From Bacteroidales bacterium (GTDB taxonomy: Bacteria > Bacteroidota > Bacteroidia > Bacteroidales > Muribaculaceae): a DNA stretch of 41,507 nucleotides. Both the position numbers and the translations under genes were made by a program. The DNA lies in contig JAAVFL010000016.1 in NCBI GenBank assembly GCA_014800795.1, positions 1-41,507 on the forward strand, read 5' to 3'. The notes under the pieces were generated by a model. That model was not told the DNA's origin. It was given only the letters and a program-made list of their open reading frames with translations, and did not search any database. Positions 12,319 to 23,304 of the stretch are shown here, piece after piece. Numbering within the stretch: position 1 is the first letter of the stretch; the number at the start of each line of letters is the position of its first letter.

Positions 12319-14610
12319 TCAGCTTCCGAGCTCGAGCTGATTTTTTACTAAATTGAAATATGCTCCTCTCATGGCGGTAAGAGATTCGTGGGTGCCGGTC
12401 TCGACAATACGGCCGTTATCTATCACCACAATATTGTCGGCATTTCTGACAGTACTCAGGCGGTGTGCGACAACAACAACGGTACGCCCACGGTAAAATT
12501 CTGTCAGATTATCGGTTATCATGCGCTCGTTAGCAGCGTCAAGTGAATTTGTCGCTTCATCGAAAAACAGAAATTGCGGGTCGCGATATACGGCACGTGC
12601 TATTAAAATGCGTTGCTTCTGTCCCTGGCTGATGCTGTTGCCGTCTCTTCCGATCTTTGTTTGATATTTAAGCGGTAAAGATTCGATAAAGGTGTCGATA
12701 CAAGCTATCCGTGCGGCATATTTAATTCGTTTGTCATCTATTATCTCATCCGATGTAGCTATATTTCTTTCAATTGATTCTGAAAATATCACGCCATCCT
12801 GCATAACAACTCCGCATTGTTTTCTCCACCAGTCAAGTTTATATTCCCTGAGGGGAACATCGTTTAATATGATGTTACCGCTTTCCTGCTTGTAATATCC
12901 GAGCATGAGTTTGATCAGTGTAGTTTTTCCACTTCCGGACATCCCTACTATCGCCGTCACTTTACCGGCAGGGACAGACAGATTAATATGATTTAATGTC
13001 GGAACAGGGGAGTGGCGGTCATATCTGAAAGTTACGTCTCTGAATTCTATAGCCGATGTAGTGGCGGGCATATCATTGAATTTTGTCCGTAAAATGCATC
13101 CGCTTCCGTCTGTATTCTGCTCGTTGTCGTTATTATGAATCTGGTTAATTCGTTCGAGAGATATCCTTACATCCTGAATTGAAGAGATAAAACCCATAAG
13201 CTGCTCTACCGGGCTGTTAAGCTGACCTACGATAAACTGAATTGCAAGCATGGCTCCCAAAGTTATCTCCCCGTCAATTACCCCCATGGCTGCCAATATC
13301 GTAATCAGTATGTTTTTCAGTTCATTTATGCAAAGACATCCGGCCTGCTGCATCTGCTTTAGTTTGAGACTCTTCATCTGAATGTCGAAAAGTTCCTTCT
13401 GACTGGAAGCCCATTCTGTGCGTCGTCTTTGCTGGCATCCCTGCAACTTTATCTCCTGCATGCATGTCATAAACTGATACGTTATACCGTTGTTTTTGGC
13501 TGCTGCTTCAAATTGCTCATAATCCAATATTTTACGACGTTTCAGAAATGCTGCTATCCATGCGGCGTATATCGCGCTTCCTGCAAGGAATACCACGAAT
13601 ATCAGCCAGTTGTAAACAGCCAGTACACTTCCGAGAATTATGAAACTCATGGATGTAAAAACAACATTCAGGGTTTGCTGTGTCAGAAAATTCTCTACTC
13701 TCGAATGATCTCCCATACGTTGCAACAGATCACCCATAAGTTTTGTATCGAAGAAACTCATCGGTAATCTCAACAGTTTTATAAAGAAATCGCTCAGAAG
13801 CGATATGTTCACATGCATAGAGATTCTAAGAAGCAACCGTCTGCGGATAAAGTCTGATAGTGTACACCCGGCCACGATTACAACTTCTCCAAGCAGTATA
13901 AGCCAAATTATACTGATACTTCGTCGTGCGATACCGACATCCACAATAGCCTGAGTGAGAAATGGCATCAATAGCTGCAGGCCGCTTCCTATGGCGAGCC
14001 AAATGGCGATTTTTACAAACTGTTGCTTATGATGCGTCACGTATCCCCATAGAAATCTCCAGGATCGTTTATTTACACTCGCTTCCCCGCCGTCCGGAGC
14101 AATCTTCTTTCCGAAATCTTCTGTCGCTTCGAAAAACATTGCTATTCCATGATGCTTCCCGTATGTGTCCCGTTCACCCCAGTGATCCCTGAATTGATCG
14201 CGCCCTATTTTATATATCCCCTTAGCCGGATCAGCTATGCAATAGTGCTTACCATTACGTGATATCCCATATACCACTACGAAATGATTCTGATTCCAAT
14301 GCAGAACCGCAACTTCAGAACTGCCACCGTTTCTTTTTTGTTCCTGATGGAATATACTGTACAACTCATCTTCTGTAATCCTGTAACCGTTTGCTTTCAA
14401 CCCTAGCGCAGCTGCTCCATCGGCAATCCCCTTGAGCGATACCCCCTCTTTTGTCGGTGTACATAGTTTTTCAAGAGTGTCGAGGCTGTATTCATATCCA
14501 TATGCCGAGCAAACCATACCCAAACAAGCGACGCCACATTGCATGGCGTCGCGCTGTCTGACATATCTGAGTTTGCTTTTACGGCGGGAATGATACATAC
14601 ACCTTTTCAA
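12319..14610 (-). CDS. C39-peptidase ABC exporter for Gly-Gly leader peptides
   Basis: A 763-residue peptidase-containing ABC transporter. The N-terminal C39 cysteine protease has RQRDAMQCGVACLGM with catalytic Cys25, HFVVVYG with His109 and IADP with Asp127. A six-helix membrane domain follows (about residues 180-460). The ATPase has Walker A GMSGSGKTT (near 555), signature SISQGQKQR (near 657), Walker B FLFFDEAT and the H-loop VAHRLST. Such proteins cut leader peptides after Gly-Gly and export the core across the inner membrane. The precursor at 20638-20886 has exactly such a Gly-Gly, making it the probable substrate. The gene lies 49 bases after the barrel gene at 14660 and shares its promoter. 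No HlyD-type adaptor is encoded nearby. Confidence 0.95.
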   Translation of the reverse strand: MKRCMYHSRRKSKLRYVRQRDAMQCGVACLGMVCSAYGYEYSLDTLEKLCTPTKEGVSLKGIADGAAALGLKANGYRITEDELYSIFHQEQKRNGGSSEVAVLHWNQNHFVVVYGISRNGKHYCIADPAKGIYKIGRDQFRDHWGERDTYGKHHGIAMFFEATEDFGKKIAPDGGEASVNKRSWRFLWGYVTHHKQQFVKIAIWLAIGSGLQLLMPFLTQAIVDVGIARRSISIIWLILLGEVVIVAGCTLSDFIRRRLLLRISMHVNISLLSDFFIKLLRLPMSFFDTKLMGDLLQRMGDHSRVENFLTQQTLNVVFTSMSFIILGSVLAVYNWLIFVVFLAGSAIYAAWIAAFLKRRKILDYEQFEAAAKNNGITYQFMTCMQEIKLQGCQQRRRTEWASSQKELFDIQMKSLKLKQMQQAGCLCINELKNILITILAAMGVIDGEITLGAMLAIQFIVGQLNSPVEQLMGFISSIQDVRISLERINQIHNNDNEQNTDGSGCILRTKFNDMPATTSAIEFRDVTFRYDRHSPVPTLNHINLSVPAGKVTAIVGMSGSGKTTLIKLMLGYYKQESGNIILNDVPLREYKLDWWRKQCGVVMQDGVIFSESIERNIATSDEIIDDKRIKYAARIACIDTFIESLPLKYQTKIGRDGNSISQGQKQRILIARAVYRDPQFLFFDEATNSLDAANERMITDNLTEFYRGRTVVVVAHRLSTVRNADNIVVIDNGRIVETGTHESLTAMRGAYFNLVKNQLELGS

Positions 14611-14659
14611 GGTTACGCAATATTATTGCATGAATTACCGATATTTCGGGATGGATTTT

Positions 14660-16849
14660 TTATCTGACTGTACTGCTGGCAGAATTGGATATTTCTATGG
14701 ATTTTGAGTGGTCTATCTTTTTGCCATATTCGAAATTGTAGGAAAACGACAGACTTACGGAACGTCCGTATGCCCGATCCATTACCTTGCTGTGGACATC
14801 GGCAACAGATGTTGCCATATGTGTAGCAGTTGTAAAATATTTGTTCAGGGGCAATATGTCGAGGCTTATATTGAAACTTTTGTCCGTATAGGAGCCGCGT
14901 AGCCATAGGTTCCAGTCCTTACGGTCTTCATATCCCCCTTGGTAGAAGCTTGCCCGGCCATCAGGTCCTGTGAAAGAGGCGTGTACCATAAAATGATTGT
15001 TAGGGGTATATGTCAGATTGATCGACGGCATACATATCCATTTGTTAAGGCCAAAAATACCACCGGTCTGATGAAATCGTCTGGCTGTTACCGCCAGATC
15101 TAATGACAGTGATGAAGTCAGATCATATTCTCCCATAAGAAATGCATAAAATTCATCGTTATTGCCGCTCGTCACGGGAACAGTGTACATAATGTTGTTG
15201 TACGGTACGTAACTGTTAACGATAGCGTCGGCTGTTCCGCTGTATTGGGTCGATAACGCTACCCGTGCTTTATTCGATATGAACCAAGAGTAATTGAACA
15301 TAAATGAATAATACTTTTGCCATTTGAGGTCGGCGTTACCGATAGTCCCCGTGTACGACGTATTTTGAGTAAATACGGAAGTATACATATAGGGGCTGGG
15401 TGGGGTAGGCTTATATTCACCGCTAAATGTGAACGAGTGTTTTTGACCGGCTCTCCCGGAAAGGGTGAACTTGCCGTTCCACATATCTTCATTCATATTA
15501 TCTGAGTTGCTCTGGGTTGTGAGCGAGTGAAAATACGATGCGTCTAACGACAGATTCCATGATTTGCTTAACTTCATGGCATATGTCAGGCGTGCTGAAG
15601 TCGTGTTGGTTGTAAATCTATGGTGTGCAATTGTATTGCCGGTGTATGCCGTATTGAATATGGTGGCTCTGTCTGTCAGATGCAATCCCAGCTGAGTGTT
15701 GTTGGGAAGCAGATAATACGCACTTAAAGTTCCTTCAGGAGAAATCCCTTTCTCATTTGTCATATTAATAAATTGTACCGACTGCATGATTGATTGTTCT
15801 GTGCGGCAGTCGTTCGCATTTGTGATACTCCCGACAGCCTTTCCTCGGAAACTCAGATATAATTTGTCGGATGCCGCATAGTTCATATTGACAGATAAAG
15901 AGGGGATTACACGGCTTGATGAGAAATCGACAGTCGTATTTTTTACAGTCGCATCGCCTGCAATAATGTCGGTTACGCTGCCATCTCTCTTATAATCAGG
16001 CATTCGTGAACCGAATACTCCGGCATTGATCAACACGTTGAATCTGGAATCCGGCACCAATCTCCATTGTACTCCTGCATTGTACGTGCCACTGCGCCGT
16101 CTGGTAATTTCAGATCTGCTTGCTCGTTCGAGTGTCCAAGGATTTCCTGCTTCATCCCTCATATTGTAGACATACCCGTTTTCATACACAGTGCCGTTTG
16201 TGTTGGCGTATCCGCCTCCTCCGGTAAACTGCCATGTCGATTTCCCTTTTACCAATTTACTGTAAACATCTCCGTTCCCTTCATTTATAATAAATTTTTC
16301 ATTGAGATTTATGGTTGTAAAGCCACCGTATTGATACTCTTTGGCAATGATATTGATTACATTTTCGTCGCCATGAAACTGTGGATTGACCGGATTTTTA
16401 AGTACCTCTACTCTGAGGATATCTTTAGGGCGCAGGTTCACGATTTCTACCTGTGAGGCCTCCAGCCCGTTGAGGTAAAATGTAAATGCCTGATCGGTAT
16501 TTGTAGAGATTTTTCCATTTACAAGGTCGACCCTTACCAAGGGTAAATGCATCGCCGATAACAACTGAAATGTATTGAACGACGCGTCTTTGAGTCGTTT
16601 TTTAGGTATGTACGCCTGACCATCCTCTATAGCCATTGACATCTGAGCTTCAACAGCAATTTCTTTCAGGTCAATGCTATATTCTATACTGTCAGTATCG
16701 GCCTCAACTTTTTCCTCTGATTTTTTATCGGAAGATGTGTTGCCGTTGTCTGTCGTGGATTTGCTTTGAGCCGACATTATTCCAGTCGTCATCCATACCA
16801 ATACAGTGGTCAGTAGATATGTTGAGATGCGTCTTACCTGTATTTTCAT
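14660..16849 (-). CDS. Outer-membrane beta-barrel protein (TonB-receptor-like), RiPP locus copy 2
   Basis: A 729-residue protein with a signal peptide (about residues 1-27), then a low-complexity Ser/Glu/Asp stretch. A plug-like domain follows, with ILRVEVLKNPVNPQF and ENVINIIAKEYQYGG, which correspond to the VEVIKNP...GGVINIITK part of TonB-receptor plugs. The rest is a long alternating-hydrophobicity barrel closing SLSFSYNFEYGKKI. It lacks the usual N-terminal carboxypeptidase-like domain and SusC features. Its C-terminal pattern matches the other barrel at 17030, so the two are divergent relatives. It starts a two-gene unit with the C39 exporter from its own promoter. Roles in peptide release, uptake or self-protection are possible; none is shown by the sequence. 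Confidence 0.85.
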   Translation of the reverse strand: MKIQVRRISTYLLTTVLVWMTTGIMSAQSKSTTDNGNTSSDKKSEEKVEADTDSIEYSIDLKEIAVEAQMSMAIEDGQAYIPKKRLKDASFNTFQLLSAMHLPLVRVDLVNGKISTNTDQAFTFYLNGLEASQVEIVNLRPKDILRVEVLKNPVNPQFHGDENVINIIAKEYQYGGFTTINLNEKFIINEGNGDVYSKLVKGKSTWQFTGGGGYANTNGTVYENGYVYNMRDEAGNPWTLERASRSEITRRRSGTYNAGVQWRLVPDSRFNVLINAGVFGSRMPDYKRDGSVTDIIAGDATVKNTTVDFSSSRVIPSLSVNMNYAASDKLYLSFRGKAVGSITNANDCRTEQSIMQSVQFINMTNEKGISPEGTLSAYYLLPNNTQLGLHLTDRATIFNTAYTGNTIAHHRFTTNTTSARLTYAMKLSKSWNLSLDASYFHSLTTQSNSDNMNEDMWNGKFTLSGRAGQKHSFTFSGEYKPTPPSPYMYTSVFTQNTSYTGTIGNADLKWQKYYSFMFNYSWFISNKARVALSTQYSGTADAIVNSYVPYNNIMYTVPVTSGNNDEFYAFLMGEYDLTSSLSLDLAVTARRFHQTGGIFGLNKWICMPSINLTYTPNNHFMVHASFTGPDGRASFYQGGYEDRKDWNLWLRGSYTDKSFNISLDILPLNKYFTTATHMATSVADVHSKVMDRAYGRSVSLSFSYNFEYGKKIDHSKSIEISNSASSTVR

Positions 16850-16950
16850 AATTTGATTGTGTTTATGTTAAATGAATAAGATATAACTCTATGTTGCTAT
16901 ATTACTTATTGCTGTTTTAAACAAAAGTGCGACATACTCGGCTGTGCTTG

Positions 16951-16982
16951 CAAATGTAGTAACTGCAATTGACATATCCAAA
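16951..16982 (-). promoter_or_regulatory. Promoter of the barrel-exporter unit
   Basis: Minus strand TTTG (16982-16979), 20 bases, TACATTTG (16958-16951): an exact match to the Bacteroidota promoter pattern, about 100 bases before the start of the barrel gene at 16849. Confidence 0.75.
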
Positions 16983-17029
16983 TGTCCACATTGATTCTGA
17001 AAGAAAATTGCGTGTGTGGGAGCGGAGTT

Positions 17030-19165
17030 TTACTCAGGTAACAGTTGCTTGACATCGATTGGGTTGACTTTCTTTCCGTGATGTAGGGAATAGGCGATCC
17101 TGAGAGACAGCCTGTTATCCATCCTGAACTGGTTATTGCTCCATGTAAGCATATCGAGCGCAGGAGAATGGAGCCTTTCCCGTGACTTTCCGGATGTGAG
17201 ATGCAGGGGTGTATGATAGGTCAGGGAGACTGACAACCGATTTTTGAGAAATGATTTTCGTATCATAAGATATAGACGGTCGGTATGCATACTTGAATTC
17301 GCTTGTGGAGTGGGAATATCACGCAGATCCATTGTATAGGTTGCATAACACATCATTCCTATACGGCTCATATAATATTGCCCTGAAAGATATACATTGA
17401 ATGCAAGTCCCTTCCGGTGGAGTTCTTCAAATCGTGCATATGTCTGTGTGAGGTCGAATGCTCCGGAAAGAAACCATACGTCTTTTATGGGAGCGTTCCA
17501 ATCGATTCTGAATCCCCAATATTTCTGTGAGGTGTTGTATGGAGTTTGAACGACATAATATCCCTCCTCGCCGTCGGGACGTAGACCATAGCCTGCTTCA
17601 TATATCGTTGATATGCTTCGTGGGGAGATACCACATTTAGGTCGCAGTGTAATGTGGTTCCACAGTCCGAACACAACATTCAGATTATGGAAAGGCGCAT
17701 CGCGCAGATAGGGATTGCCCTGATTGTACATCAGTGAATCGGTAAATTGTCCGTAATCTGTCACCTGACCGAGAAAAGGCTGCGATACTGATGTGGTGTA
17801 GTAGATTCTCATCCAGTTTTTCTCCGTGAATTTATATGACATATAAAGATCGGCGCGGGGTGTAGCGTGCATCTCCACCCCGTCTCCAGAGTTGACGGAT
17901 GTTGCTTGTACGCCTCCGGATAAGCGAATGGTAAGTTTTTCCAAAGGAACCCAGCTCGCCGTAAACATACCGCGGTTCAGTTTCTGATTGGTATGTGAAA
18001 GCGTTTTATCGGTTTCCATGCGTCTGTATCGGTAATCGTAGTTGAACCACCTGTAGTTGAAGTTGAACTGCCACTTTTCATTGGAAGGGGTGAATGTGAT
18101 ATCGGCGTCTGCCAATGCTGTTACAGCACGTGCTATGCGGTTGTCGGGCAATGAGAACCCGCTGCTGCGCTCCACGTTGGCATATTCATCGTTCTTTACA
18201 TTATAAATCTCTGCAGTGGCGCTGAAATCCCATCTTTTATTGTGACCGACATAATAGATTGTACCACCGAAATCGAACACAGGGTCTGTCGTTGAAGTGG
18301 CAAGGGATGTTTCCCGATATGAATCCTGTGCTGCGGGGCTCACAACGCTCATATCCTGATACGCCCGTTTATTGACCTTGGTATGTTGATAATATCCGTT
18401 CAAGGATATTGTATGGTTGCTGCTGATTTTATAATCGACAAAAGCTTTCCCGTATGCTGAGAATATTTTGTTGAAATCGGTGGGTTTATCGCGTGGTTGC
18501 TCGATGTCGGTCTCGCATAGATCGTTGAAAGGATAGTGGCGCGCGTGATATTGCGAGGTCCCGTTTCTTTGCCAGATATATTGACCATACACTCCGAATG
18601 TCAATTTATTGCGTACGTAGTTGAAAGTCATGCTGCCGTCGGAATACGAGAAGTCGTTCCCCTTACCGTTTCTCCCTCCTGGCATCAGCTGTACCTGATC
18701 GTCGGCTTGCAAGTCGTAACCCACATAGTTAGTCTTGGTATGTAGATTAAGAACCACGTCGAAATCCTGATAGCGACCTGCCGGGTTATAGATGACATCC
18801 ATCTTGCTGAACCGCCTGTGATCGAGTTGCTTTACTTCATCATAACTTTTCTCAATGCTGTCTACAAGAATCTTTATCTTCTTTTCTCCAAGATATTCCA
18901 AAGTTTTGTCAGAGGGATCATAGCGGAATCCCGCGAGTTTTCCCGCGACCTCAGCAATGTTTACAGCATTCTTTCGCATTGCCGGTGTGAGAATCACCAC
19001 ATCGTGCGACCCATTGTGGATGATAGCATCATGCTTCACCACAATCTCTCCGAATTCTTTGCCCACAATTGTATCTGCCGATTCGGCATATTGTCCCCAC
19101 ATTTGTTCATCTAATATAGATGCTATTGATAAGATCAACAAAATTACAATTCTTATATGCGTCAT
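17030..19165 (-). CDS. Outer-membrane beta-barrel protein (TonB-receptor-like), RiPP locus copy 1
   Basis: A 711-residue protein with a hydrophobic signal sequence (about residues 5-24). A short periplasmic and plug-like region includes KILVDSIEKSYDEVKQL, SKMDVIYNPAGRYQDFDVVLNL, comparable with TonB-receptor plug motifs (I.V..NP..RY). It is followed by a barrel rich in aromatic alternating strands, ending LRIAYSLHHGKKVNP. That closing pattern resembles the second barrel (YNFEYGKKI), so they are paralogues in a broad sense, but their plug regions differ strongly. It lies 130 bases after the radical SAM gene. I see no strong promoter in that gap, only a weak CATATTTG box. Confidence 0.82.
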   Translation of the reverse strand: MTHIRIVILLILSIASILDEQMWGQYAESADTIVGKEFGEIVVKHDAIIHNGSHDVVILTPAMRKNAVNIAEVAGKLAGFRYDPSDKTLEYLGEKKIKILVDSIEKSYDEVKQLDHRRFSKMDVIYNPAGRYQDFDVVLNLHTKTNYVGYDLQADDQVQLMPGGRNGKGNDFSYSDGSMTFNYVRNKLTFGVYGQYIWQRNGTSQYHARHYPFNDLCETDIEQPRDKPTDFNKIFSAYGKAFVDYKISSNHTISLNGYYQHTKVNKRAYQDMSVVSPAAQDSYRETSLATSTTDPVFDFGGTIYYVGHNKRWDFSATAEIYNVKNDEYANVERSSGFSLPDNRIARAVTALADADITFTPSNEKWQFNFNYRWFNYDYRYRRMETDKTLSHTNQKLNRGMFTASWVPLEKLTIRLSGGVQATSVNSGDGVEMHATPRADLYMSYKFTEKNWMRIYYTTSVSQPFLGQVTDYGQFTDSLMYNQGNPYLRDAPFHNLNVVFGLWNHITLRPKCGISPRSISTIYEAGYGLRPDGEEGYYVVQTPYNTSQKYWGFRIDWNAPIKDVWFLSGAFDLTQTYARFEELHRKGLAFNVYLSGQYYMSRIGMMCYATYTMDLRDIPTPQANSSMHTDRLYLMIRKSFLKNRLSVSLTYHTPLHLTSGKSRERLHSPALDMLTWSNNQFRMDNRLSLRIAYSLHHGKKVNPIDVKQLLPE

Positions 19166-19236
19166 AACTTAAACAAATTATTGTTTTCTCAAATATGGGA
19201 GTATGGATGTGGTTGAGTAATACATTTATCTGTAGT

Positions 19237-19258
19237 ATCAATAAAAATTTTTATTGAT
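19237..19258 (-). terminator. Perfect AT-rich palindrome after the radical SAM gene
   Basis: A 22-base perfect palindrome (ATCAATAAAAA/TTTTTATTGAT) 37 bases beyond the radical SAM stop. It could terminate or attenuate transcription before the barrel gene, but the stem is all A/T apart from one pair on each side. Confidence 0.4.
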
Positions 19259-19295
19259 GCGATTGCTATTTCTGGCGTAAGTTACATAATTTTTA

Positions 19296-20549
19296 TCACC
19301 AAAAGTTTGCTTGTATTATCCGTTCGGTTATCATTCTATCTTTATCAGGAAGGAAACAACTGATATTTGTTTGTCGTTGAAGCATTCTTTTTCTTTTAGC
19401 CGGACATGGTCCCCAACATACGGGTAAGTATTTACATGAATAACATTCTGATTTATTATCAAAAATTGCAGGGATGGTGTATTTAAGTCCATCCGGCCAG
19501 ATTATCTGTCCGTCAACCTCAATGTGGGCTGGAACTTTATCCATTCCATCATTATCACATTTTCCAATTTTTCCATTTGGAAATATACAGTTAAAACTTG
19601 GTTTATCGGCATAACACATGTCGAATCTATGAATGACTGGGAAAATCCCAGAGTCTCTTGCTATTGTACATAGATATTCAATTTTTCTCTCAGTCTCGCG
19701 ATCTTCCTGTTCCTGCCAAACTCTCTCAATTGAGAGAATAAGATTCTTCTTAGCCTCTTTACTTAGGCGTTGATTCAATTCCGATATAATTTGGTCAGGT
19801 TTGGTGTTCTTTCTTGTGTAGTTAAATCTAAGCGCACAAGTTGAATATCCTGGTAGCAAATTAATGTTTTTCAGCACTGTTTCGTATGCAGATACAGACT
19901 TGAGACGTTTGATTTTATCATGATCCGCTTTTATACCATCAATTGTGATTTGATAATGTGTTACACCCGCTTTATGTAATTCTTTTATGCGTACGTCATT
20001 TAAAAGGGTTCCATTAGTAGTGATGGAACAATCAAATTTTTTGTTCAACTTTTTGCAAAGTTGATTGGAATACGAGGTTATCTCTTTAACAATGTCATAT
20101 GCTAAAAGGGGTTCACCTCCAAACCAGGAAAGAGTAAATAATTTAATATGTTCCTCATTTACTTTTTTATGAATATGTAATTTAATAGCGCTTACAATAT
20201 CAGGGCTCATATAAGCGTCTGCATGCTCCTGAATGCAGTACCAACATCTTAGGTTGCATTGGTATGTTGGTAGGAGCATTAAGTGATATTCTTCGTGATG
20301 CTGTCTATTATGAAACTTTAGTCTAACAAACTCCATCTCATTAATTTCATCGTCGCAGATGAATCTTAAATTATTCATTCTGGCATAAAAGTCAGGATAA
20401 AGATTAATATATTCATCTGGATTCTTCAGTAGTTCCTCAAAGAGTTTAATTCGTTCTTTTGAAACTGTAAAATAGAATTCGCTCAGACCATTATATATGA
20501 TATAATCGTCTCCGTATGGAATATAATAGTTGTAATAACTTGTTTTCAT
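19296..20549 (-). CDS. Radical SAM/SPASM peptide-modifying enzyme
   Basis: About 418 residues when started at the MKTSYYNYY methionine (20549). An upstream in-frame extension would overlap the precursor gene, so I reject it. The radical SAM cluster motif is CNLRCWYC with Cys98, Cys102 and Cys105, preceded by a 90-residue N-terminal domain typical of RiPP enzymes. SWFGGEPLL and TTNGTLL follow the TIM-barrel order. The C-terminal SPASM domain supplies auxiliary [4Fe-4S] ligands: FNCIFPNGKIGKC, ECYSCKYLPVCWGPCP and a final SCF. SPASM enzymes of this kind install thioether or carbon-carbon links or epimerise residues in peptides. The adjacent Cys-rich precursor is the obvious substrate. The exact chemistry cannot be read here. 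Base composition is markedly A/T-rich. Confidence 0.94.
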   Translation of the reverse strand: MKTSYYNYYIPYGDDYIIYNGLSEFYFTVSKERIKLFEELLKNPDEYINLYPDFYARMNNLRFICDDEINEMEFVRLKFHNRQHHEEYHLMLLPTYQCNLRCWYCIQEHADAYMSPDIVSAIKLHIHKKVNEEHIKLFTLSWFGGEPLLAYDIVKEITSYSNQLCKKLNKKFDCSITTNGTLLNDVRIKELHKAGVTHYQITIDGIKADHDKIKRLKSVSAYETVLKNINLLPGYSTCALRFNYTRKNTKPDQIISELNQRLSKEAKKNLILSIERVWQEQEDRETERKIEYLCTIARDSGIFPVIHRFDMCYADKPSFNCIFPNGKIGKCDNDGMDKVPAHIEVDGQIIWPDGLKYTIPAIFDNKSECYSCKYLPVCWGPCPAKRKRMLQRQTNISCFLPDKDRMITERIIQANFW

Positions 20550-20569
20550 TCGTAACTGATTAGCGATTA

Positions 20570-20626
20570 ATTGTATCGGGCTGCATTTATGAGTTATATA
20601 TAGATATAAGTGCATCCCGATACAAT
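20570..20626 (-). promoter_or_regulatory. Intercistronic stem-loop between precursor and enzyme genes
   Basis: An 11-pair perfect stem (20570-20580 with 20616-20626) extends inwards by two further four-pair blocks broken by single mismatches, around a 15-base loop. It fills the 88-base gap between the precursor stop and the enzyme start. It has no T-run, so it looks like an attenuator or mRNA-stabilising hairpin that would leave the precursor more abundant than the enzyme. Confidence 0.6.
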
Positions 20627-20637
20627 ACGTTCCATTA

Positions 20638-20886
20638 CTATGAAATGCAGCCTGCACTTCCTCCTGTTTTAATTATTTCTTTGCAGTCATTGCAACCTGC
20701 ATTAAAACAACCAGCATTATCATCTTTTGAGCAATCTATATTGCACCCAACTTTCCGACAACCTCCATTTGTACATCCGGTGTCTGTAAGAGGCATGATA
20801 TCTCCACTTCCGCCTTTAATCTGCAAGGCTTCCATTTCTGTTAGCAGTTCGTTGTCTGCTATTTTGTTCGATAATTGTTTGATCAT
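20638..20886 (-). CDS. RiPP precursor peptide: Gly-Gly leader plus eight-cysteine core
   Basis: An 82-residue peptide. The leader MIKQLSNKIADNELLTEMEA runs to LQIKGG (Gly25-Gly26), the double-glycine cleavage site and KGG ending seen in Bacteroidales natural-product precursors. The core (27-82) holds Cys38, 43, 48, 52, 60, 65, 68 and 80 and is rich in Gly, Asn and Asp. It shows an internal repeat: C-x-N-(G/A)-G-C occurs at 38-43 and 60-65, and C-N-(I)-D-C at 48-52 and 65-68. It has no signal peptide. The radical SAM/SPASM gene follows directly and a C39 exporter lies downstream, so modification, Gly-Gly cleavage and export are the expected fate. Thioether crosslinks are plausible from Cys spacing and nearby Asp, but this is inference. 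Confidence 0.9.
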   Translation of the reverse strand: MIKQLSNKIADNELLTEMEALQIKGGSGDIMPLTDTGCTNGGCRKVGCNIDCSKDDNAGCFNAGCNDCKEIIKTGGSAGCIS

Positions 20887-20965
20887 GTTTTTACTTCTTA
20901 TTAGTTAATATATGAATTAGTTTTCATTTTTTGTATAGCTGTAATGCATCAGCTTATAGAGGCGA

Positions 20966-21334
20966 TCATAAGTCGAATGTTCCGACAAATTCGTCATCAG
21001 TTTCAGTGGTGATGGTGATAGTGAAATTTCCGTTTGATGCAGGAAGGTAAACTTCTATCCCTTCATCAAGATATCCTGCACCTATAGAAACTGCATCGGT
21101 TTTTGTCTCTGTAACAACGATGGTGGCATAACTCCAATCATTAGGTGATGCAGCATAAATTATGTTATCAATGATTTTACACTCGGGAATGGGGGACATA
21201 GTATTCCGTCCACCTTTATTTTTTACAACTACTTTTATGTTTATGTCTGGTGGATTATTTGGAGAAATACCATCCGCATATCCATTTATGCAGAAAATGA
21301 TAGAAACAATTAATGTGATTATTCGATATTTCAT
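20966..21334 (-). CDS. Small secreted DUF3244-like protein
   Basis: A 122-residue protein with a signal peptide (about residues 1-20). The mature part is a single beta-sandwich-like domain ending NFTITITTETDDEFVGTFDL, which resembles the closing strands of the Bacteroidota DUF3244 family (short secreted proteins of unknown role). It is the first gene after a very good promoter and lies 79 bases before the precursor gene, so both probably share a transcript. It contains one Cys after the signal peptide and no lipobox. Its link to the peptide pathway is positional only. Immunity, binding of the product or an unrelated surface role are all open. Confidence 0.75.
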   Translation of the reverse strand: MKYRIITLIVSIIFCINGYADGISPNNPPDINIKVVVKNKGGRNTMSPIPECKIIDNIIYAASPNDWSYATIVVTETKTDAVSIGAGYLDEGIEVYLPASNGNFTITITTETDDEFVGTFDL

Positions 21335-21360
21335 AACCGTGATTTTTGATTTTTTCTTTG

Positions 21361-21392
21361 CAAAAATATGAATGGTTTCGCGTTATGACAAA
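21361..21392 (-). promoter_or_regulatory. Promoter of the RiPP precursor operon
   Basis: Minus strand TTTG (21392-21389), 20 bases, TATTTTTG (21368-21361), exact in both boxes. Transcription would start near 21353, 20 bases before the DUF3244-like start. Confidence 0.78.
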
Positions 21393-21437
21393 TAATTTGC
21401 ATGGAAATTATCGTAACACATGTGTGCTTTATGTGTT

Positions 21438-21505
21438 GATAATAAGGCAGTTATATAGGCGTTACGATGCAATAATCGTAACGCCTATATAACTGCCTTA
21501 TTATC
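21438..21505. repeat. Perfect 31-bp inverted repeat (6-base loop)
   Basis: 21438-21468 is the exact reverse complement of 21475-21505. It lies 33 bases past the regulator stop and about 45 bases upstream of the precursor-operon promoter. A further hairpin (AACACAT/ATGTGTT) abuts its left side. There is no T-run. It may end the regulator transcript, or it may be the target of the regulator or a small mobile relic. Confidence 0.8.
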
Positions 21506-21537
21506 AGGTGCAAATGCGGAGTGTTTTTTGGGTGCTG

Positions 21538-23304
21538 TTACGCAAACATTTGCAAATATATGTTGCGATTGGGCGATTCAGTTTGTTCTACAATTTTTTT
21601 CAGTCGAGATTTCCGCATTCTTATGGTCTCAATTCTCTGAATACCGAGTATCAATGCTATGGTGTGAGAACTCATTTTAGTGAAGATTAACAAGGCTAAC
21701 TGTATATCCTTTTCTGATAATTCAGGAAAATCACTCCGAAAATCGGACATGATATCAGAATGTGACTTATTAAGTGACTCTTCTAAGATTAAATATACTT
21801 TGGATGAATTAAGCTGGGTGATCATGTTTGAGAAATCATCAAGGAATGATTTTTCAGCGTTTGCTATGTAATTTGTCTTAATATCTTTATTCTTTTGTTT
21901 AAGAGCCTCCACCTCTTTATCTGCAAGTAATTTTTTCTTTGAAAGCTTATTTATTTGAGATATCAAGGAGTTCAAGGTCTCATAAAGCGATATTGATTCG
22001 GAAGTTGAGTTATTAATGTATGTGAGATTCTGATTTTGTAGTAATTGTATTTGTTTATTTAAATTGCAATTGATTAATGCAATGTTTGCAAGTTCTTTTG
22101 TTTTATTGTTCCTATATCGGGAGAATATATATAGGATAATTGTAATTACGGAAAAAGCACATAGTATGAATATTATTAATCTCTGTTTAAGCAATTTGTT
22201 TTGAATCAATTGAATCTTAAATTTGGAAGTTGTATAATCATTAAATCCGATAGCCACATGATTATTAATTCGGAATACAGCTTCTTTGCGGTTAATCTTC
22301 TTATATGTATCATATAAATTCATTAGAATCGTATCATTTAATTCAACGATACGGTTTTTTACCATGAAATATGAAATATTTAACGAGTCGTTTTGGTTTT
22401 TTGCAATAGACATAGCTTTGTCTATCAGTAAATTTGCATTTATTTTATTGCCGTTTTGCATCTCAAGATATGACATGAATGCATAGTTCAAGCTTTCTAA
22501 ATAAGTGCATTTATCCATGTACTTAGAATAATATTTGGCAGCTTCTTTCCAATTATTTTTGTTAGCAAGACTGTGGGCCATTATGGCAAATGATTCAGTC
22601 TTTTGATAGTGTGTTACGCATCTGTCGCGGATTGTTTCAAAAAGACTGTCTGAAGCTGACCATTGATCAGTTATCTGAAGACAAGTTAGCATCATTATCT
22701 CCGCATCTGTTTGCCAGTTTGTAAGTCCATTTCTCCCAAATATGTCAATTGCTTTGGCGAGATTTTCATAACATAACTTAAAGCATGATGATTGGTATGA
22801 AATGCTGGCAATATGGAAATATGTTCTACCTAACCAATAGTCCTTATTGTCAAAATGGGTGGAATTTATGATGTCCTTAGCTTTTTCAGCTTCATATGAA
22901 GCCTTTGAGTACTCGTCTGCGTAATAATAAATCGTAGAGAGGTAGAAGTGCGCGAGCATGCGGTGGTATGCGTCGTCGGAAGTGTCGAAGTAGGCGACGG
23001 CAGGGGAAATCAGCGTGTCGGACGTCTGATCAATGTAGTTTTTGTCGCGTGCCTGCGTCAGTAGCAGGGCGTGGAGGGCGCGGCGGCGCTCTCCGCTCAG
23101 ATCTTCCGTGGGGATAGCTTCAAGAATAGTCAGAGCACTGTCGGGATGCTCCTCCATAACGGTTTCGGCAATCTCCATGGCGCGGTCTGCCTCTAAGTCA
23201 GATTTGCTTGTGCAACCCGCGATAAAAATGGCAGACCATACTATTACCGTAATTTTACATAATGCCTCAAGAGGGCGATATTTCTTGGATAGTTGAATAT
23301 TCAT
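21538..23304 (-). CDS. TPR-transmembrane-HTH regulator of the RiPP locus
   Basis: A 588-residue protein of a Bacteroidota membrane-regulator type. It has a lipoprotein-like signal (IFIAGC, about residue 31), a helical TPR-like periplasmic part (about 40-365), one membrane helix (LIIFILCAFSVITIILYIF, about 377-395), a coiled coil (about 400-480) and a cytoplasmic C-terminal helix-turn-helix (LSEKDIQLALLIF...TIALILGIQRIETIRMRKSRL) like LuxR/GerE domains. It probably senses a peptide or envelope cue and controls the adjacent operon. It starts 21 bases after the plsC stop. The first ~120 codons (downstream to about 22945) are G/C-rich like plsC, while the rest is strongly A/T-rich like the precursor operon. 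This points to recombination within the gene. Confidence 0.85.
   Translation of the reverse strand: MNIQLSKKYRPLEALCKITVIVWSAIFIAGCTSKSDLEADRAMEIAETVMEEHPDSALTILEAIPTEDLSGERRRALHALLLTQARDKNYIDQTSDTLISPAVAYFDTSDDAYHRMLAHFYLSTIYYYADEYSKASYEAEKAKDIINSTHFDNKDYWLGRTYFHIASISYQSSCFKLCYENLAKAIDIFGRNGLTNWQTDAEIMMLTCLQITDQWSASDSLFETIRDRCVTHYQKTESFAIMAHSLANKNNWKEAAKYYSKYMDKCTYLESLNYAFMSYLEMQNGNKINANLLIDKAMSIAKNQNDSLNISYFMVKNRIVELNDTILMNLYDTYKKINRKEAVFRINNHVAIGFNDYTTSKFKIQLIQNKLLKQRLIIFILCAFSVITIILYIFSRYRNNKTKELANIALINCNLNKQIQLLQNQNLTYINNSTSESISLYETLNSLISQINKLSKKKLLADKEVEALKQKNKDIKTNYIANAEKSFLDDFSNMITQLNSSKVYLILEESLNKSHSDIMSDFRSDFPELSEKDIQLALLIFTKMSSHTIALILGIQRIETIRMRKSRLKKIVEQTESPNRNIYLQMFA

Follow-up and report, generated by a model that had tools for sequence, protein, structure and literature searches.

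In the colicin V and microcin V systems, a barrel serves uptake by the target cell. Export in these systems resembles that of the locus described here in pairing a GG leader with a C39 ABC exporter, but it employs a full MFP and TolC (PMC10352776). How RiPPs cross the outer membrane in adaptor-less clusters of Bacteroidales is a published question: clusters BGC6-9 encode a PCAT and an OMP but no MFP, and the authors ask whether transport in these clusters is distinct (PMC10352776). The window analyzed here, a 41,507-nucleotide stretch of a Muribaculaceae genome, resembles BGC6-9 in its C39 exporter, its GG-motif precursor (a motif that most BGC6-9 precursors carry), its OMP and the lack of an adaptor gene, and BGC6-8 in its radical SAM enzyme. 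Unlike the window, BGC6-8 add a YcaO and BGC9 has a LanM. In the sections of PMC10352776 considered here, the type of OMP is unnamed and a reduced adaptor is not mentioned.

Export through barrels has been proposed or reported elsewhere. An export role has been predicted for PF14905/SusC-like barrels in graspetide loci of Bacteroidetes, where C39 exporters, barrels and TPR proteins are neighbors as in the window; these loci differ in their ATP-grasp chemistry and, as tabulated there, in having HlyD as a commoner neighbor than the barrel (PMC8939145). Oar of Myxococcus xanthus is a TonB-dependent transporter required for secretion of PopC from the periplasm; its cargo is a protease and not a peptide of the present kind, and any likeness to the window barrels would be one of function (PMC6434023). 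These comparisons draw on parts of each paper.

Results

The operon lies on the minus strand of the window, and every part is an open frame there. Its features and those just upstream are as follows.

12319..14610, minus strand: C39 peptidase-containing ABC exporter (PCAT), 763 aa from TTG (open frame, Pfam, motifs)
14660..16849, minus strand: outer-membrane barrel 2, 729 aa, PF14905 (Pfam)
17030..19165, minus strand: outer-membrane barrel 1, 711 aa, TonB-receptor-like with plug (Pfam, alignment, AlphaFold, Foldseek)
19296..20549, minus strand: radical SAM/SPASM peptide maturase, 417 aa from ATG 20549 (Pfam, NCBIfam)
20638..20886, minus strand: RiPP precursor, 82 aa, GG leader ...LLTEMEALQIKGG, core with 8 Cys (open frame)
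20966..21334, minus strand: small secreted protein, 122 aa, weakly DUF3244-like (sub-cut-off Pfam match)
21361..21392, minus strand: Bacteroides-type promoter match TTTG-N20-TAnnTTTG (pattern search)
21437..21506, no strand: perfect inverted repeat (32-nt arms, 6-nt loop) separating regulator and operon (repeat search)
21538..23304, minus strand: putative one-component membrane regulator, 588 aa (by eye, weak Pfam TPR matches)

The original prediction had named a GG-leader precursor with an eight-Cys core, a radical SAM/SPASM enzyme, two TonB-receptor-like barrels, a C39 peptidase ABC exporter and a membrane regulator preceding them, and all of these are present. The exporter, which has an alternative ATG 12 bases inside its TTG start, matches Peptidase_C39 (2.4e-28), ABC_membrane (3.3e-25) and ABC_tran (2.8e-30). 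All seven motif strings for its catalytic and nucleotide-binding sites were found. By its predicted domains, a C39 peptidase with catalytic residues, an ABC membrane part and an ATPase, the exporter is a PCAT. Downstream of it, groES/groEL-like frames were recognized by eye.

The enzyme matches Pfam Radical_SAM at 1.2e-17 and shows, by eye, a CX3CX2C motif and a SPASM Cys pattern; its start was placed by eye at ATG 20549 in preference to GTG 20657. It scores far under cut-off with all 25 NCBIfam models listed. Its nearest named relatives, the maturases of Cys-rich peptides TIGR04463 and NF038107, give 119 bits (cut-off 525) and 114 bits (cut-off 600), so that by score the enzyme belongs to neither family. 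A Cys-rich core and a SPASM-type enzyme make the product at most a candidate ranthipeptide or sactipeptide, classes defined by thioether links from Cys to carbon. The precursor gave no NCBIfam match (E <= 1) to TIGR04149, which we take to be the GG-Bacteroidales precursor family; the sole match listed at that threshold was TIGR04194, at 16.3 bits (cut-off 33). The score of this precursor against our leader profile is no test, because the precursor itself seeds the profile.

The stretch singled out in the original prediction ended at 21392, the end of the promoter match. The pattern TTTG-N20-TAnnTTTG, presumably the Bacteroides-type promoter consensus, has six matches in the window against 0.63 expected. 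The inverted repeat beyond it is longer than a usual terminator, and may be a terminator or an operator. A defence system was considered and rejected, as PADLOC matches (an ABC ATPase, a viperin-like radical SAM) looked generic. Elsewhere the same genome holds a second RiPP locus, L032 (G000:C29), which encodes a C39 exporter, a mini-adaptor of 71 aa and a single barrel together with two radical SAM proteins.

Homologues of the enzyme, both close and remote (E <= 1e-10), occur in 54 of 198 Muribaculaceae genomes, and 60 stretches around them were examined. The original prediction saw the barrels as not fitting standard type I export, but as members of the cluster they are no oddity: one or two barrels lie within 7 kb on the same strand for 34 of 36 exporters of at least 300 aa in the Muribaculaceae loci and the window, a sample that is not random because the stretches were chosen by enzyme. 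The 2.72 Mb window genome has 11 PF14905 matches at E <= 1e-5, two of them the window's own. About 0.013 such matches would be expected by chance within 3.3 kb on one strand per gene; the observed figure was 12 of 71 exporters in an order-wide survey described below.

The precursor, too, was expected to persist wherever enzyme, barrel and exporter persist, and largely it does. Among 37 loci with all three, automated rules identified a precursor-like frame in 27 and inspection by eye in 34. Twelve of the 37 were recognized by the leader profile, which is no independent test because the profile was built largely from these loci. A simple rule, which in places flags a different frame, picked out 15 of the remaining 25. 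By eye, a small Cys-rich frame lies beside the enzyme in 22 of these 25. The three loci that depart from expectation are L033 and L140, both cut by contig ends, and L165. The parts and their recurrence together support the predicted RiPP logic of precursor, enzyme and exporter. No exporter was seen in the stretches L034, L039 and L041, despite enzyme and barrel.

A family 2 glycosyltransferase fused to a LanC-like domain lies beside a radical SAM RiPP cassette (L047:5417-7789), with homologues in L048 and L049. Behind an exporter and a mid-length adaptor, L053:16609-18072 encodes a Branch-type glycosyltransferase with a weak methyltransferase-like part; L055 has a 487-aa frame at the matching position.

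Both barrels match PF14905, the 729-aa protein at E 1.5e-9 and the 711-aa protein at 1.2e-14, and barrel 2 is assigned to its class by this match only. An EVVV-like stretch seen by eye in the barrel alignment is a TonB box candidate. The AlphaFold model of barrel 1, made from 7 sequences (mean pLDDT 76, pTM 0.61), combines a large barrel with an N-terminal part that resembles a plug. Foldseek listed 50 PDB matches, nearly all TonB-dependent receptors and led by Cir (E 1.5e-19), which has been solved with microcin V (PDB 9nn6). The superpositions are loose (query TM 0.38-0.51, rmsd above 20 A) and we therefore claim the general fold alone; as modeled, barrel 1 is a plug-in-barrel protein of the TonB-dependent receptor type.

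The two barrels are 14% identical and fall in different clades, which rules out a recent duplication. The nearest relative of the window, L033, also carries two barrels of different clades. Between these two loci the exporters are 67% identical, the enzymes 60% and barrels 1 45%, and blastp finds no significant similarity between the second barrels. Two barrels of such different descent could have separate tasks, the one adjacent to the exporter exporting the peptide and the other taking it up or protecting the producer. This division of labor seems improbable: just 12 of 51 barrel-bearing exporters have at least two barrels within 7 kb, and where L035, L039 and L175 carry barrels in tandem, the tree places the two as sisters. 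The idea that RiPP-linked barrels form a clade of their own apart from ordinary PF14905 proteins found no support, since the tree mixes both on long branches. In Heminiphilus faecis (L054:11220-15844), an 86-aa piece of the radical SAM gene sits between two barrels that are sisters, an arrangement suggestive of joint duplication of enzyme and barrel; no exporter was seen in that stretch.

The predicted absence of a HlyD-type adaptor was borne out. No HlyD-like frame is adjacent to the window exporter, and no mini-adaptor behind it was found among small frames with a hydrophobic stretch. Judged from its genes, the window's operon lacks the duct-bearing HlyD adaptor of tripartite type I secretion (ABC-HlyD-TolC), and for this operon the evidence on the adaptor is one of absence. 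A profile built from 14 full HlyD proteins scored full-length members at 434-570 bits and detected them in each of the four control genomes. In 19 Muribaculaceae genomes that carry the cassette, where all candidates were scored, no full-length adaptor of this type came up, nor did one in the whole set of 198 (mostly the best 8 candidates from each, the best at 56 bits). Within the sensitivity of these searches, neither the window nor its genome leaves room for conventional type I export through an overlooked adaptor. An RND-type efflux adaptor could instead act in trans with TolC, leaving the barrel some other role such as immunity or display, and weakly matching adaptor-like frames of about 350 aa do exist in some Muribaculaceae genomes. 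These frames score below 39 bits against the exporter-linked HlyD profile and the window genome is matched by a single 71-aa frame, outside the window operon, which makes such help in trans quite improbable.

What the profile did find were short frames. Of 53 rows in the 198-genome scan, 21 were 60-95 aa long and aligned with roughly model positions 1-55 and no further; stops interrupt one of these frames. They belong to a class of mini forms (48-97 aa) that consist of the tail and the membrane helix. Mini forms follow the exporter immediately, either overlapping it or separated from it by no more than about 50 bases; L032, with a barrel in between, is the exception. In Heminiphilus faecis, a Muribaculaceae species, locus L169 combines enzyme, barrel and exporter with a mini-adaptor of 65 aa. 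Mid forms of 159-178 aa join HlyD positions of about 1-65 to about 315-430, and so keep the start and the terminal beta-barrel domain without the lipoyl part and the hairpin. NCBIfam TIGR01843 matches the C-terminal part in three of four mid forms tested, two strongly; in L118 and L138 this half is too diverged for the profile. The 226-aa adaptor of L120 keeps a lipoyl-like stretch. The hairpin is the part of HlyD that reaches TolC. An adaptor without it is already known, BesA (PMC8277102, as far as that paper was drawn on here). The mini forms share a motif, and their codon-position identities (0.43, 0.59 and 0.27 over 19) speak for selection as a protein, which rules out mere decay for the group. 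Broken copies do occur, in L145, L198 and the one row of the genome scan.

The relation between adaptor and barrel was surveyed across the order, where C39 domains were found in 113 of 247 genomes. The 80 survey loci were taken from the best-scoring C39 matches listed, so that the sample covers the upper part of the range; seven loci from the top of the list were left out (contig ends, cut frames, the other locus of the window genome and two more). HlyD, mostly of about 435 aa, accompanies 64 of 81 survey exporters. Counted on the same strand within 7 kb and with contig ends unfiltered, 58 exporters are accompanied by HlyD alone, 9 by a barrel alone, 6 by both and 8 by neither (Fisher p 2.4e-4).

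For a pooled tally, 116 exporters of 600-900 aa were reduced to 108 by dropping 8 at contig edges. Adaptors were classed as full at 300 aa or more (L103 has 300, L063 372) and as reduced at 48-97 or 159-178 aa; the mini-adaptor of L036, a near relative of the window, was missed by the profile and tallied as none. With a barrel within 3.3 kb (n=48), 5 exporters had a full adaptor, 22 a reduced one and 21 none, against 53, 3 and 4 with no barrel (n=60; p 3.7e-17, in a tally that mixes a family-biased sample with the order survey and is confounded by ancestry). The adaptor is thus absent or cut beside 43 of 48 barrel-bearing exporters and 7 of 60 others. In the survey loci alone the counts of full, reduced and none were 5/4/3 with a barrel and 53/2/4 without (p 6.6e-4). 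The phylogenetic control, on well-supported branches, gave 8 independent pairs with a mean of 3.5 agreeing and 0 opposing, which falls short of significance (p 0.125). The exporter tree has a well-supported clade of 15, all barrel-only, made up of 12 of the 15 Muribaculaceae exporters included and three from other families. The Muribaculaceae exporters of L047, L050 and L051 and further barrel-only exporters lie elsewhere.

The exceptions run both ways. A full HlyD is kept in 5 of 12 survey barrel loci (L060, L061, L095, L127 and L136), so a barrel does not force adaptor loss. The seven barrel-free exporters without a full adaptor are L076, L084, L090, L092, L119, L121 and L174.

Two of these loci have arrangements of their own. 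In L084:7441-12185, a 55-aa mini-adaptor behind the C39 exporter has no barrel beside it and a MacB/FtsX-type permease (794 aa) as neighbor, perhaps another replacement of the adaptor. In L121:9398-12113, a clear 174-aa hairpinless adaptor follows the C39 exporter, and no barrel was detected nearby.

A search from the adaptor alone, run after the idea had formed, used a mid form as query against 396 genomes of the class and gave at least 14 frames of at most 263 aa among the matches listed. One was the window genome's, one (G340) had already been surveyed, nine were examined, and G791, G739:C216 and G764 were left out. In five of the nine loci the short adaptor lies near an exporter, and in four of the five a barrel is adjacent (L193, L194, L196 and L201); L201 is the weakest case, with an exporter frame of 282 aa and its 239-aa adaptor further off. 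The exporter of L195 has neither an adjacent barrel nor a full adaptor. L197 has an adaptor fragment away from an exporter that has a full HlyD, L198 a broken HlyD and no exporter, and L199 and L200 show no exporter in the stretch. Among longer-frame controls, hand-chosen and non-random, a barrel lay beside the exporter in 0 of 11; in control L202 a barrel is next to an enzyme on the other strand.

Upstream of the operon, the regulator shows by eye a lipobox-like N-terminus, TPR-like helical repeats that would be periplasmic, one TM stretch, a coiled coil and an HTH-like C-terminal end. Its Pfam matches are weak TPR matches only, and its AlphaFold model (pLDDT 58) is too poor for a structure search. 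A scan of the 5 kb upstream turned up a regulator homologue for 18 of 46 Muribaculaceae radical SAM genes and for 1 of 64 order-survey exporters, with a profile built mostly from Muribaculaceae and two sets anchored on different genes. The 122-aa secreted protein matches PF11589 at E 0.029, under its cut-off. Its profile, seeded from the same loci and with one spurious frame among 8 seeds, finds relatives upstream of 14 of 46 Muribaculaceae radical SAM genes and 0 of 64 survey exporters; all 14 also have the TPR regulator. From this distribution, the TPR regulator and the secreted protein appear to be an optional upstream module.

As the original prediction also proposed, the barrels could instead be receptors. 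The exported peptide, a signal or a scavenging compound, would return through them to the periplasm and be sensed by the TPR regulator, and export would take another route. Barrel 1 has an importer fold with a plug, its best matches are Cir and siderophore/heme receptors, and the regulator is enriched beside the Muribaculaceae enzymes. In addition, barrels diverge faster than exporters and are swapped, the second barrels of the window and L033 being non-orthologous. We regard this reading as a serious rival, though a less likely one than export: it leaves the loss or cutting of adaptors beside barrels unexplained, and no regulator was found upstream of 28 of the 46 radical SAM genes.

Discussion

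The window holds a radical SAM RiPP operon in which, at roughly even odds (about 0.5), the route of export has been rebuilt and a barrel carries the peptide out. The gene sequences establish the predicted parts, their joint recurrence, and exporters that, beside a barrel, mostly lack a full adaptor. Adaptors beside barrels are mostly absent or reduced to the membrane anchor, with or without the terminal beta-barrel domain.

In the export that we propose, the enzyme would cross-link the Cys-rich core, the C39 domain would cleave the precursor after GG, and the ABC part would release the mature peptide into the periplasm, the last two steps following what is known of the exporter family. To get that far a C39 exporter needs no duct. 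With no HlyD duct to TolC, the barrel encoded beside the exporter would then carry the peptide through the outer membrane, possibly drawing on TonB for energy as has been reported for Oar and PopC. Any remaining adaptor remnant presumably still serves the ABC subunit. We favor export through the barrel because the duct is gone, the barrels are the only outer-membrane proteins of the operon, and Oar provides a precedent. The fuller version, two-step TonB-powered export in which the barrel displaced HlyD-TolC and the adaptor is now a one-helix ABC subunit or gone, is a tentative proposal to which we give slightly less than an even chance. The original prediction that barrels replace the adaptor/TolC route gains partial support: a barrel and a full-length adaptor seldom share an exporter, and many barrel-side adaptors appear to lack the part that reaches TolC.

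An exporter with an OMP and no MFP has already been published, and what appears to be new here is the graded reduction of the adaptor beside barrels. In the passages of openly licensed literature that our searches brought up, we found no mention of a truncated HlyD beside barrels. Graded adaptor loss beside barrels makes the outer-membrane route testable, with a periplasmic intermediate predicted. If the barrel works outwards, TonB-dependent transporters would export peptides in a common gut lineage.
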